Of a stretch of 27,268 nucleotides of DNA, positions 7,421 through 23,724 are shown piece after piece. The DNA comes from a virus, in the IMG/VR virus record IMGVR_UViG_3300026142_000018, positions 1 to 27,268 of that record. One strand, given 5' to 3'. The notes below the pieces were generated by a model. It was not told the origin of the DNA. It was given only the letters and a program-made list of their open reading frames with translations, and made no database searches. Both the position numbers and the translations under genes were made by a program. Every line of letters starts with the position of its first letter. The stretch's first letter is position 1.

Positions 7421-9052
7421 TTAATCCGCTAGAACAATGTCAAAATTTGTTGCAGGCATTATATAGCCCACACTAGGCGAGTTGAGAATTAAATCAAACT
7501 TGACGCCATCGAATATATAGCCGTACCTCGCGTTTTCTCCGTACAGGTCAACAGCAAATGCAACCGTACCGCTATTATGTCCGGTGCCAGAAGCAGTGAA
7601 TTTAATTCCGGTTGTCAAACCGCAAACGCCGCGATTAGACGAAACGCCAACACCGTCTAATTGATCACCAGCAATATCCAGACCGCTAACACCGCTGTTA
7701 ATGCCGGCCATAAAGGCAGCAAATCGAATTGCAGTGATTAAATCCGATTGACCGGAATTTCTACTGGTTCCGCTTGCGTCTAGATTAGCAGCCCCGGCAG
7801 CTAGCGAGCTAAAACCACTGTTGTGTCCAGTGCCAGCAGCCGCTAGAGGTATGGCAGTGCTCAGGCCAGCCGATCCGCTGTTGCGGCCCGTAGCAGCCCC
7901 GTCAAGCGCCGCAGCGCCGCCCGCGAAGTCTGCGCTACCCGAGTTCCGCCCGGTGCCTGCGGCAGCTAGCGGGATGGCCGTAGACAGACCCGCGATGCCG
8001 GCATTTCGCCCGGTGCCTGTTCCGTCCAAGGCTGACGCAATGCCTGCCAGTGACGACGTACCAGAATTCTTACTTAATCCAAATCCGACAAGCTGGATAG
8101 CTGTCGTTATCGCAGACAAACCAAAATTTGAACCGGAACCAGACGCAGCTAATGCAGCGGCAGAGCCGATTAAATTTGACGTTCCTGAATTGATGCCTTT
8201 ACCAGAAGCCGCTAAAGGAATCGCTGTAGATAATCCAGCCGTACCAGAATTACGGCTTACTCCTACGCCATCTAAAGCAGCACTTGTACCACCAGAAGAT
8301 GGAACAGGTGTTAAAAGTTTTCGAGGTTCAAGTAATGACCAGAATCCAAAATCGTTAGAATATCTACGAAATTCTTCATCAGATAAAATACGATTGAATG
8401 TAGCAACAGGCCCAATCTTTGAACCATCAGAAAAACCTTCACTGGTGCTAGGGCCTCCGCGATTACCAATTGAATAGTTAATCGACGTACTAAATGTATT
8501 TGACCCAGAACCAGTACCATCAGCTTTACCGCCAAGATAAAATCTAGATGTACTACCGTCGTAGCTTACCCCAACCCAATACCATGCACCACTAGTCAGC
8601 GACGTTGTGCTAGAACCTAAATCAGCAGTCCCGGAACAAAGTAAATTTAATTGGTTCGAAGTATTTACACGAAATTGAAAACCGCCAAAACCAGAACCAT
8701 ATATCGTTTGTTGCGCACCAATTGAAGCTAACCAAATCTTAGCAATAACTGAATGATTTTTTGTAGACGTTGCACCAGCAGCGCCCAAATTAACCATTAT
8801 CGAATCTAATGAACCTGTCCCGGTTGTATCTAACTTTAAATGATAACCATTGTTATCATAGTCCCAATAAACACCCGTAGGAGTTGGCGAACCAGCACCG
8901 AAAGATCCATGCGCTTTACCGCATAGATCCAAAATCTTTAGATTGTCACCGGTTCTAATCCCGTATAAATGGACTAGACCAACATCGCCACGCGCACGAA
9001 CGAATTGTTGAGGTTGCCGCGACCACGGCAAAGGTAGCCGTCTGCGTGTCAC
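7421..9052 (-). CDS. LamG-domain receptor-binding protein with 20/21-residue tandem repeats
   Basis: A 543-residue candidate tail fibre or adhesin. The start is a GTG at 9052 with CGGAG eight bases upstream, inside the end of the previous gene. Residues about 65-235 form a concanavalin/LamG-type sandwich: SLDSIMVNLG, WYWVGVSYDGS, FYLGGK, then the typical exit IGPVATFNRILSDEE and FWSLLEP. Residues 258-500 are twelve repeats, each centred on N-S-G, spaced alternately 20 and 21 residues, making six 41-residue units of two flavours (ALDG.G..RNSG.A.LST and IPLAA.GTG.NSG). The last 40 residues are a short strand-rich cap. LamG domains in phage fibres usually bind surface glycans; the repeats are probably a stalk or beta-solenoid. 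Sequence alone does not show which end binds the host. Confidence 0.75.
   Translation of the reverse strand: MTRRRLPLPWSRQPQQFVRARGDVGLVHLYGIRTGDNLKILDLCGKAHGSFGAGSPTPTGVYWDYDNNGYHLKLDTTGTGSLDSIMVNLGAAGATSTKNHSVIAKIWLASIGAQQTIYGSGFGGFQFRVNTSNQLNLLCSGTADLGSSTTSLTSGAWYWVGVSYDGSTSRFYLGGKADGTGSGSNTFSTSINYSIGNRGGPSTSEGFSDGSKIGPVATFNRILSDEEFRRYSNDFGFWSLLEPRKLLTPVPSSGGTSAALDGVGVSRNSGTAGLSTAIPLAASGKGINSGTSNLIGSAAALAASGSGSNFGLSAITTAIQLVGFGLSKNSGTSSLAGIASALDGTGTGRNAGIAGLSTAIPLAAAGTGRNSGSADFAGGAAALDGAATGRNSGSAGLSTAIPLAAAGTGHNSGFSSLAAGAANLDASGTSRNSGQSDLITAIRFAAFMAGINSGVSGLDIAGDQLDGVGVSSNRGVCGLTTGIKFTASGTGHNSGTVAFAVDLYGENARYGYIFDGVKFDLILNSPSVGYIMPATNFDIVLAD
7553..8281 (-). repeat. Six 41-residue coding super-repeats in the LamG protein
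   Basis: The N-S-G cores fall at residues 267, 287, 308, 328, 349, 369, 390, 410, 431, 451, 472 and 492, with spacing 20 and 21 in strict alternation. The repeats are conserved as protein but not as DNA. The peptide LSTAIPLAA occurs three times with largely different codons. The central copies (about 7,820-8,050) are much richer in GC than the outer copies. Confidence 0.9.
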
Positions 9053-21754: not shown

Positions 21755-21967
21755 TCAGACAAATTTCTTACCGTTGCACTTTGGGCATACGATTTCATCG
21801 TCAAACGCTCCATTGATGTTTGGAATCGTGCCATTGCCCCAGCATTGCCCACAGATGTCCGTGCGACCAGATTCCGCCAGGGCAAGCAAACCCTCTAGTG
21901 CAAGCCAAGCAATCAGGCAGAATGCAACGACAGACAGGAATGCATGCGTGCTGAACCATTCAATCAT
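21755..21967 (-). CDS. Small membrane protein with zinc-ribbon-like tail
   Basis: A 70-residue protein. I choose the ATG at 21967 because it overlaps the upstream stop as ATGA; a longer reading from 21994 would invade the upstream gene by 31 bases. One hydrophobic helix (residues 6-30, including FLSVVAFCLIAWLALEGLLAL) is followed by CGQCWGNG and CPKCNG, two Cys-x-x-Cys pairs about 22 residues apart that could bind one zinc, as in DnaJ-like or rubredoxin-like knuckles. Function unknown. It is the last gene before the promoter of the next unit. Confidence 0.7.
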   Translation of the reverse strand: MIEWFSTHAFLSVVAFCLIAWLALEGLLALAESGRTDICGQCWGNGTIPNINGAFDDEIVCPKCNGKKFV

Positions 21968-22143
21968 TTGATTACCGCCTTCGGATCGATACACGCGCGG
22001 CGAGATTCAATCTCCCCATATTTACCGCCTTTGCGTTCACACTCGACTTTGAAGTCATGGTCACGTTTCAATGTGACAACCAAAACGGTACACATTAATA
22101 GAAGAAATGCGATAACAATAAAATCTTCAATTGTTAATTTCAT
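21964..22143 (-). CDS. Small membrane protein (59 residues)
   Basis: A 59-residue gene fixed by overlap at both ends: its ATG at 22143 overlaps the stop of the VRR-NUC gene and its TGA overlaps the next ATG. Residues 1-26 are a membrane helix (DFIVIAFLLLMCTVLVV), followed by a basic segment (LKRDHD) and a polar C-terminus with two cysteines (VECERKGG and RRACID). One polypeptide pattern of this kind is a membrane-tethered cytoplasmic or periplasmic tail. Function unknown. Confidence 0.7.
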   Translation of the reverse strand: MKLTIEDFIVIAFLLLMCTVLVVTLKRDHDFKVECERKGGKYGEIESRRACIDPKAVIK

Positions 22144-22523
22144 AGCAACCCCATGTATTCAATAACCCTATCGCGAGCCAGCCACCAGCTATCACATACG
22201 CAGGTAGCGTAGTGTTGTTCATCAGCAAACGCTCGAAATTCGTCTTGTACTGCTGAAGTATCTTTTATCTTACCCGGTGCCTTCATTTCGATGTATAGAC
22301 CATGATAGATGCCGCGTGCTGCCGGTACAAACACATCGAATACGCCAGCCCTTACGCCTTCGGCTTTCGCTTTGCCTCCGCGTACCTTATCGCCATGGCC
22401 TTGATTATGGATAGCATGCATCCATTTCAATTCGGGATAAATTTGTTGATTTTGTTGCGCCCAAATGAATAGAGCGACTTGGTGCGAATGCTCCGAAGTC
22501 TTGGCGTATTGTTCGGGGTTCAT
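22140..22523 (-). CDS. VRR-NUC domain nuclease
   Basis: A 127-residue stand-alone VRR-NUC protein of the PD-(D/E)xK nuclease superfamily. The catalytic core is visible: GVRAGVFDVFVP with Asp63, then LYIEMKAPG with Glu79 and Lys81, and a following Q-x-E-F helix (VQDEFRAF) with Gln93. HAIHNQGHG (residues 37-45) matches the family's N-terminal 'iPNg' region. Such small proteins occur in many phages and may resolve DNA branches or cut host DNA. The start and stop both overlap neighbours as ATGA. Confidence 0.88.
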   Translation of the reverse strand: MNPEQYAKTSEHSHQVALFIWAQQNQQIYPELKWMHAIHNQGHGDKVRGGKAKAEGVRAGVFDVFVPAARGIYHGLYIEMKAPGKIKDTSAVQDEFRAFADEQHYATCVCDSWWLARDRVIEYMGLL

Positions 22524-22714
22524 TCTTTATACTCAATCTTCCAGTTCAAATCTTTCATATGAAATGAAAAATCCGTAACGTGTGCAAAAGCTTCTAACGC
22601 GCTTGAAAACTTAGTAGGACATTCGCAAATCACTCTCTTATTGCTATTGTATTTGATTCGCCATGTCCAGAAGTTAGAGGGCATGCGTTCGATTTCGATG
22701 ATGTATTTAGGCAT
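22520..22714 (-). CDS. Small unknown protein (64 residues)
   Basis: A 64-residue protein beginning MPKYIIEIERM. I place the start at 22714, where AGGAG lies 11 bases upstream and the ATG overlaps the end of the TraR-like gene; a longer reading from 22882 would run through that gene in another frame. The sequence looks like a small alpha/beta fold (FWTWRIKYNSNKRVICE, ALEAFAHVTDFSF). No known motif. Its stop overlaps the nuclease start as ATGA, so the two are coupled. Confidence 0.65.
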   Translation of the reverse strand: MPKYIIEIERMPSNFWTWRIKYNSNKRVICECPTKFSSALEAFAHVTDFSFHMKDLNWKIEYKE

Positions 22715-22904
22715 CGTTTGGCTTTCTCCTACCGTCCCGGCAGAAACCGCATTTACCGAATACAAGTCTTGCAAATTCTTCGCCGCACGACTTACATTCA
22801 CCCTCACTAACTCCTTGAATTGCGGCTTGATTTTCTCTAATCTTAGCGAGCGTTGCCGCAATAGTTTTCTCGATATAGTCATTGGCTTCGTCTACTTCGT
22901 CCAT
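22707..22904 (-). CDS. TraR/DksA-like C4 zinc-finger protein
   Basis: A 65-residue protein of the TraR type. An N-terminal helix (DEANDYIEKTIAATLAKIREN) is followed by a four-cysteine zinc site: C37-K-S-C40 and C52-G-F-C55. This is the layout of TraR, which enters the RNA polymerase secondary channel and mimics ppGpp with DksA. The acidic residues at the N-terminus (DEVDEAND) fit the tip of such a helix. Phage homologues are thought to shift host transcription. The gene overlaps the lipoprotein gene upstream and the 64-residue gene downstream. Confidence 0.85.
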   Translation of the reverse strand: MDEVDEANDYIEKTIAATLAKIRENQAAIQGVSEGECKSCGEEFARLVFGKCGFCRDGRRKPNDA

Positions 22905-23260
22905 GCGACAACGTTACCTTTCTGACAAAACATTTCAGGATGTCCACCAGCTTGATCTAAGTAATACGGAGTCATACCTTTTTCAAATTCAAAGTATGCA
23001 ACGGCAAAAAAGAATCGAGATTTGCCGTTAACCAGATAGTGTCCGCATACGGTTTTGACACCGGGCGGATAGTCCAGAACCTGCGAATATTCTTCTGATA
23101 GCTTAACTGGCGCCCCTACCCATTTAGCCCTAACCATTTCCATAGCTTTGAATTGTGCGTCTTGTGGGCTTATTTCATCTTTCTTACCGCATCCAGTCAG
23201 CACTACAGCAAGCAATGCGACGAATACAAAGAACGTTGCGAACCGTAGTGTGCGTGTCAT
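22892..23260 (-). CDS. Phage lipoprotein of unknown function
   Basis: A 122-residue lipoprotein. It has a basic N-terminus (MTRTLR), a hydrophobic core of about 14 residues and the lipobox LTGC, giving Cys24 after signal peptidase II cleavage. The mature part is small and alpha/beta, with VKTVCGHYLVNGKSRFFF and a second cysteine pair position (Cys72, Cys112), which could form a disulfide in the periplasm. A phage lipoprotein among early genes could act in superinfection exclusion or envelope change; that is inference. It overlaps the TraR-like gene by 13 bases. Confidence 0.8.
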   Translation of the reverse strand: MTRTLRFATFFVFVALLAVVLTGCGKKDEISPQDAQFKAMEMVRAKWVGAPVKLSEEYSQVLDYPPGVKTVCGHYLVNGKSRFFFAVAYFEFEKGMTPYYLDQAGGHPEMFCQKGNVVAWTK

Positions 23261-23266
23261 GATGGA

Positions 23267-23512
23267 TTAACCTTCCCGTTTAACGTTGATTGGAGCGATT
23301 GGATTTCTTTCGCTGATAGGTGATTGAACCACACCACAACGAACAAAGCAATCCTTTGCTTCCAACAATTTGCGCATTCCTGCACTCTTTTCGGGTCCGT
23401 CTGGCAGCATCGCATTCATTTGGCTAGCCAATACGGCAATTGGTTTGCTAATGGCTTGCAATGGTGCCGGCAGATGTTCGAATACGAAATATTGATCTAC
23501 ATTCGTTGTCAT
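23267..23512 (-). CDS. Acb2/Tad1-hairpin-like protein (candidate cyclic-nucleotide sponge)
   Basis: An 81-residue helical protein. The segment HLPAPLQAISKPIAVLA (residues 13-29), then LPDGPEKSAGMRKLLEAKD (36-54) and CFVRCG, matches the pattern of the Acb2/Tad1 hairpin family ('F.HLP..L..vs.pf..lA......LPdGpE.t..lRkLLEAKD..VR'). In the studied members, Acb2 binds cyclic oligonucleotides and so blocks CBASS signalling, and Tad1 sequesters Thoeris signals. The residues around 'LPdG.EKS' and the 'LLEAKD' helix are typical of the helical hairpin. Many family members have not been tested, so the sponge role is inferred. ATGA overlap with the gene upstream. Confidence 0.68.
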   Translation of the reverse strand: MTTNVDQYFVFEHLPAPLQAISKPIAVLASQMNAMLPDGPEKSAGMRKLLEAKDCFVRCGVVQSPISERNPIAPINVKREG

Positions 23513-23724
23513 TTGATTTCCTTGAGTTCAAACGTTCTGAGTGTTGCCGCACCGAAATCGCCAGGACGTTGCAGATATTCGGTAATGTCAATCATTGGAG
23601 GTTGACCGGCTTCCAACCTCAAAACAACTTTGCTAATATGGCGTTTATCGAAATCTGGAATGAACAACTTACAGATTTCAACATTGAAATTTTCTGTTTC
23701 TTTATAGAATAGAGGATTCATCAT
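23509..23724 (-). CDS. Small unknown protein (71 residues)
   Basis: A 71-residue protein, not recognised. It reads as a small beta-rich protein: NPLFYKETENFNVEICKL, ISKVVLRLEAGQPP, AATLRTFELKEIK. It has no cysteine pairs or membrane segment. The ATG at 23724 is set by AGGAG nine bases upstream and ATGA overlap with the previous stop. Its own stop overlaps the sponge-like gene start, so the two are probably translated together. Confidence 0.65.
   Translation of the reverse strand: MMNPLFYKETENFNVEICKLFIPDFDKRHISKVVLRLEAGQPPMIDITEYLQRPGDFGAATLRTFELKEIK

Follow-up and report, generated by a model that had tools for sequence, protein, structure and literature searches.

A putative relative of the Acb2/Tad1 hairpin, and candidate nucleotide-signal sponge, from a widespread family of phage proteins

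Does a short gene whose relatives are nearly all labelled hypothetical protein in sequenced phages encode a relative of the Acb2 and Tad1 proteins, and might its product act as a sponge for a nucleotide immune signal? The question is raised by an open reading frame in a virus record of 27,268 bases, which we refer to as the window; a preliminary description had read this frame as Acb2/Tad1-hairpin-like and as a sponge candidate. We therefore consider in turn the gene and its family, its relation to the Acb2/Tad1 hairpin, the genes and domains with which it is found, and the explanations that compete for its function.

The gene in the window and its family

The frame and its two immediate neighbors are as follows:
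23509..23724, minus strand: upstream gene, 71 aa, function unknown; its stop overlaps the start of the hairpin gene
23267..23512, minus strand: hairpin-family ORF, candidate nucleotide-signal sponge; ATG start, 81 aa, match to PHROG 1761/5120
22892..23260, minus strand: downstream gene, 122 aa, predicted lipoprotein (signal peptide with Cys); weak matches to lipoprotein models

The 81-aa product of the hairpin ORF is MTTNVDQYFVFEHLPAPLQAISKPIAVLASQMNAMLPDGPEKSAGMRKLLEAKDCFVRCGVVQSPISERNPIAPINVKREG, and an AAGGA motif just 5' of the ATG provides a good ribosome-binding site. The overlapping upstream gene, for whose product searches of Pfam, PHROG, and PADLOC returned no match, is likely on the same transcript, and the lipoprotein gene begins 6 bases past the hairpin stop. 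The hairpin ORF belongs to a series of short genes on the minus strand that lies upstream of the lysis and terminase genes. Compared with its nearest diverged relative (L003) it has a pN/pS of 0.23, with synonymous sites near saturation, and selection on it is purifying.

Searches of PADLOC and NCBIfam with the hairpin ORF gave no match. Among the PHROG families its product is a clear member of two, both of function unknown: phrog_1761 (E 4e-27) and phrog_5120 (E 4e-22). By tblastn, relatives were found in 348 of 50,697 GenBank phage records, from phages of Vibrio, Mycobacterium, Erwinia, Acinetobacter, Brevibacterium, Gordonia, and other hosts; a single-sequence search found them on at least 83 IMG/VR contigs, and a further 56 loci come from bacterial genome assemblies. 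The numbers in the GenBank and IMG/VR records place the relatives far above chance, and the ORF is confirmed as a real gene.

The relatives align only up to about residue 62 of the window protein. The model of PHROG 1761 has 148 positions, of which the hairpin occupies 78-139, and its N-terminal part probably corresponds to a very small P-loop-like domain (GDVGSGKS) that stands before the hairpin in Dickeya phage AD1 (L344:3722-4171); this domain weakly resembles nSTAND NTPases or CoaE, and the window protein, unlike the AD1 member, is without it. Judged by sequence, these proteins constitute a large, widespread, and unstudied phage family, a diverged sister of the Acb2/Tad1 hairpin domain. 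It should be noted that an earlier description of the family may exist: in the open-licence literature nothing was found under Sequestin or Lockin, the names of recently described phage sponges.

Several other genes of the window were characterized along the way. Two genes downstream of the hairpin, a DksA-like zinc-finger protein is encoded (22707-22904, minus strand; phrog_54, E 8e-10), and positions 22140-22523 (minus strand) encode a protein with a weak, below cut-off likeness to VRR-NUC nucleases (E 0.0077); in Vibrio phage 38E33.6a a VRR-NUC gene likewise lies 1.5 kb from the hairpin gene. A CxxCxG zinc-ribbon (anti-TRAP-like) gene is found ~1.3 kb downstream of the hairpin (21755-21994, minus strand). 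The hairpin of Ochrobactrum phage OH (L354:765-1130) is joined to a ribbon of this sort, and Vibrio phage 38E33.6a has a four-cysteine ribbon gene ahead of its hairpin gene. At 7421-9052 (minus strand) lies the gene of a 543-aa protein, probably a virion surface protein, the C-terminal half of which consists of ~10 diverged repeats of roughly 22 residues (ALDGxGxGRNSGxAGLSTAIPLAA...).

Relation to the Acb2/Tad1 hairpin

Taken as a single sequence, the window protein gave no match to the Pfam model of the hairpin (PF24729, Acb2_Tad1_hairpin) at E<=1. For its relatives, 16 of 59 matched this model at E<1, the best with an E-value of 0.0079, below the Pfam cut-off; the Acb2-type phrog_1454 was likewise matched by relatives, with E-values as low as 4e-4, and the Acb2-type protein L082 in turn matched phrog_1761 at E 8e-4. 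A profile-profile comparison was performed with 166 sequences of the family and 67 of Acb2/Tad1 type and yielded a probability of 92.4 (E 5e-7, score 35.7), with 44 and 74 from smaller alignments. Column-shuffling the Acb2/Tad1-type profile 200 times gave scores of 17.7 at best, and reversing it gave 10.6. The alignment runs in order from F.Y.H.P at the start through the LA-containing helix to the turn and helix bearing P..xEKS...KL.EA. When a diverse profile of the family was compared with the PDB, 9ptq ('Acb2 homolog 43') came second among 177,635 sequences, albeit at a weak E-value of 0.12. At the level of sequence, a remote homology between the PHROG 1761/5120 family and the Acb2/Tad1 hairpin is well supported.

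The top PDB match of the phmmer and profile searches was to 'Gp22' (529 aa; E 0.0065 to 0.028), presumably the tail sheath of phage P1. We treated this match as chance, because the stretch lies inside a much larger protein present in many copies per entry and the likeness ends at the turn. Weak Pfam matches to Stomagen and Occludin_ELL were ascribed to composition.

The structure predicted by AlphaFold2 divides the protein into two parts:
23318..23512, minus strand: conserved hairpin domain, residues 1-65 (model and conserved core)
23267..23317, minus strand: low-confidence, unconserved C-terminal tail, residues 66-81 (pLDDT 60-67)

With a mean pLDDT of 85.5, and of about 95 over residues 10-60, the model shows a helix at 4-9, a second at 16-35, a turn, and a third at 40-63; the same layout is predicted for a classic Acb2/Tad1-type member (helices 3-8, 18-39, and 44-67). 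The Acb2 protomer consists of a short N-terminal helix and two long antiparallel helices (PMC12043709), and the modelled window protein agrees with this layout. Tad1 (Thoeris anti-defense 1, PDB 7UAV) has at its C-terminus a hairpin that is related to Acb2 and, more distantly, to the window family, and carries an N-terminal beta-sheet core ahead of it (PMC12043709); the window protein, in contrast, is predicted to be without such a core, its model showing no strands and only 15 residues ahead of the first long helix. With the window model, Foldseek and VIA-align gave generic helical hairpins alone (Z below 6) and neither Acb2 nor Tad1, whereas the Foldseek control with the classic member returned T4 Vs.4 first and Tad1 as well; we do not count the missing Acb2/Tad1 as evidence of a different fold.

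The string HLP...LPDGPEKS...LLEAKD, which had been quoted as the Acb2/Tad1 pattern, is real and conserved, but it is the signature of the distinct sister family, PHROG 1761/5120; the Pfam hairpin has a signature of its own, F.YH.P ... P.SREKS.A.TKLEEAVMWANAAIAR. The family alignments single out one block:
23336..23393, minus strand: near-invariant turn and second-helix block PEKSAGMRKLLEAKDCFVR, residues 40-58, including R47

Conservation within this block is inflated, and partly an artefact, among the IMG/VR relatives, which were gathered with peptide patterns taken from it, and it was checked on 12 GenBank relatives retrieved without a peptide pattern. All 12 keep R47, K48, L49, L50, E51, K53, D54, V57, and R58, and the near-invariant second-helix set of the family reads RKLLEAKD..VR. 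The two nearby cysteines, previously taken as a feature of the variant, are present in the sequence, but we rejected the pair as a defining motif: residue 55 is Ala in 7 of the 12 pattern-free relatives, and C59 is private to the window protein, its position usually being Ala.

In T4 Acb2 the ligand residues are Y8 and T68 (PMC12657230); from the same paper, Acb proteins are known to set off the Panoptes system. By our own reading, in which the T4 sequence was placed on the classic family through the common TKL.EA.MWA block, Y8 (Y11 in the classic alignment) corresponds to Tyr in 102, Phe in 41, and another residue in 23 of 166 relatives, with F11 in the window protein. The counterpart of T68 is R47, with Arg in 164 of the 166, so that the ligand threonine is not conserved in the PHROG 1761/5120 family; the classic helix end MWANAAIAR becomes KDCFVRA in the window protein. 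With T68 and the helix end replaced by another set of near-invariant residues, the pocket has probably been remade relative to Acb2 while the fold has been kept.

In summary of this comparison, the window protein shares with the Acb2/Tad1 hairpin (Acb2 being T4 Vs.4, PDB 7UQ2 and 8H2X, PHROG 1454) the order of elements, from the F.Y.H.P start through the LA helix and P..xEKS turn to the KL.EA second helix, as well as the predicted one short and two long helices; it differs in the replaced ligand threonine and helix end, and in a fold search without Acb2. Since its Pfam score falls below the cut-off and neither T68 nor the classic helix end is found in it, the window protein is not filed as a member of Acb2 or Tad1. 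What holds of the earlier assignment is a remote homology, seen in the profile comparison, the cross-matches, and the helical layout; for the window protein itself, Pfam and Foldseek returned no Acb2/Tad1.

Neighboring sponge genes and attached domains

Acb4 is a sponge family corresponding to PF13876 (PMC11722364). Among 50 IMG/VR records that carry the hairpin family, Acb4 was found in 11 and Tad2 (PF11195) in 6, with one or both in 15 records. In all 15 the sponge gene lies within 4 kb of the hairpin, with gaps of 42 to 3,852 bases, most of them under 1.1 kb; the combined probability of such closeness under uniform placement is 4e-9, and 1e-6 when close relatives are left out. None of 46 random viral records encodes Acb4 or Tad2 over the cut-off (Fisher p 2e-5; 7e-4 against 28 longer random records), a comparison in which the random contigs are on average shorter than the family-bearing ones. 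The colocation could in part reflect common hot spots of accessory genes. Within the window itself there is no Acb4, Tad2, or second hairpin.

The remaining surroundings of the hairpin are variable. Among its 119 adjacent genes are families for replication, nucleotide metabolism, tail, head, and lysis as well as integrases, nearly every one of them encountered no more than twice, and of the Pfam families just Acb4, Tad2, and a Mu Gp36 family recur; several relatives adjoin holin or lysin genes. No neighbor dominates, and the changing location of the hairpin gene is the pattern of a mobile accessory gene.

The hairpin and the known sponges also have fusion partners in common. The crAss001_48 domain is attached C-terminally to the hairpin in 16 distinct proteins, to Acb4 in 2, and to Tad2 in 1. 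A different domain, which begins approximately IMPTIGRRLWYIPS, stands at the N-terminal side of the hairpin in two proteins (L058 and L075) and of Acb4 in two (L027 and L007), which represents domain exchange between sponge-type proteins. In an independent sample of crAss001_48 proteins, Acb4 was the commonest recognised partner (11); many of these proteins stand alone, and the domain is also seen combined with others. The link of crAss001_48 to sponges is thus real but not exclusive. The absence of an extra domain, noted in the preliminary description, holds for the window protein but not for its relatives, which carry crAss001_48, P-loop, zinc-ribbon, and other domains.

Two further arrangements were observed. 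Directly downstream of a hairpin-crAss001_48 protein, a Tad2-Acb4 fusion of 330 aa is encoded (L010:4429-5418). In Rhodococcoides fascians A44A a 625-aa frame (L283:5983-7857) consists of the hairpin, a PF04586 prohead serine protease, and a PF25209 capsid domain, so that a putative sponge module heads a capsid polyprotein; L289 begins in the same way before its contig ends.

A candidate sponge and competing explanations

The computations show the family, its remote homology, the predicted helices, the replaced residues, and the link to Acb4 and Tad2, from which oligomer, pocket, ligand, sponge action, and anti-defence effect are inferred. The best reading is a sponge with an altered pocket: we put the probability that the window protein is a diverged nucleotide-signal sponge at roughly 0.6. 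The sponge role, proposed in the preliminary description, finds its support in the colocation and common fusion partners with Acb4 and Tad2, which presumably do the same kind of job but have no relation in sequence or fold to the window hairpin. We counted against it the lack of a single-sequence match to PF24729, the Foldseek result, and the loss of T68, and also the possible hot spots, the occurrence of crAss001_48 elsewhere, the window without Acb4, Tad2, or a second hairpin, and the protease-capsid fusion.

As a sponge, the window protein, a standalone helical hairpin, would assemble into an oligomer, and it is probably oligomeric. Pockets between the subunits would bind and hold a host nucleotide immune signal made during infection by a system such as CBASS, Thoeris, or type III CRISPR, and with the signal held the effector would stay inactive. 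Because the second-helix signature of Acb2 is replaced by R47, K48, E51, K53, D54, V57, and R58, the ligand or its orientation probably differs from that of Acb2. A different ligand had already been suggested, and the suggestion is supported, its basis being the replacement of T68 by Arg rather than the cysteines. We would propose only tentatively that this branch of hairpins captures an immune signal that no known Acb2/Tad1 takes; a Thoeris-variant signal, a longer cyclic oligoadenylate, or a signal as yet undescribed are possible, if doubtful, examples of what such a remade pocket might accept.

The same data can be read otherwise. A homologue of the Acb2/Tad1 hairpin might have ceased to be a sponge and now serve some other accessory function by mediating oligomerisation or protein binding, as the loss of the T, W, and N signature of the second helix, the gain of a different charged near-invariant set, and the combination with P-loop, zinc-ribbon, crAss001_48, and protease-capsid partners would suggest. 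We regard this as unlikely given the repeated colocation and common fusion partners with two independent sponge families; the strict conservation of the polar residues R47, K48, E51, K53, D54, and R58 also suits a ligand pocket, though it would suit a protein interface too.

A role in virion assembly or in the lysis module, for example in support of the head protease or the lysis cassette, is brought to mind by the frame that the L283 hairpin shares with a prohead protease and capsid domain, by the similar start of L289, and by the holin and lysin genes beside several relatives. An essential assembly gene would, however, be expected in a fixed place, and the adjacent genes include no consistent neighbor; we consider such a role very unlikely. 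Highly improbable, finally, is an unrelated small helical protein that resembles Acb2/Tad1 through convergence of short helical hairpins: the domain is short and the fold search with the window model gave generic hairpins only, but the profile alignment covers the elements in order and far exceeds the shuffled and reversed controls.

If the sponge reading is true, a family listed as hypothetical in hundreds of sequenced phages, with hosts among the Proteobacteria, Actinobacteria, and Cyanobacteria, would become a candidate class of counter-defence proteins, with a testable question attached: which signal the R47-K48-E51-D54-R58 pocket holds. The Acb2/Tad1 hairpin superfamily would then reach well past the Pfam model, and phages would be seen to collect differently folded sponges next to one another and to swap the domains attached to them.
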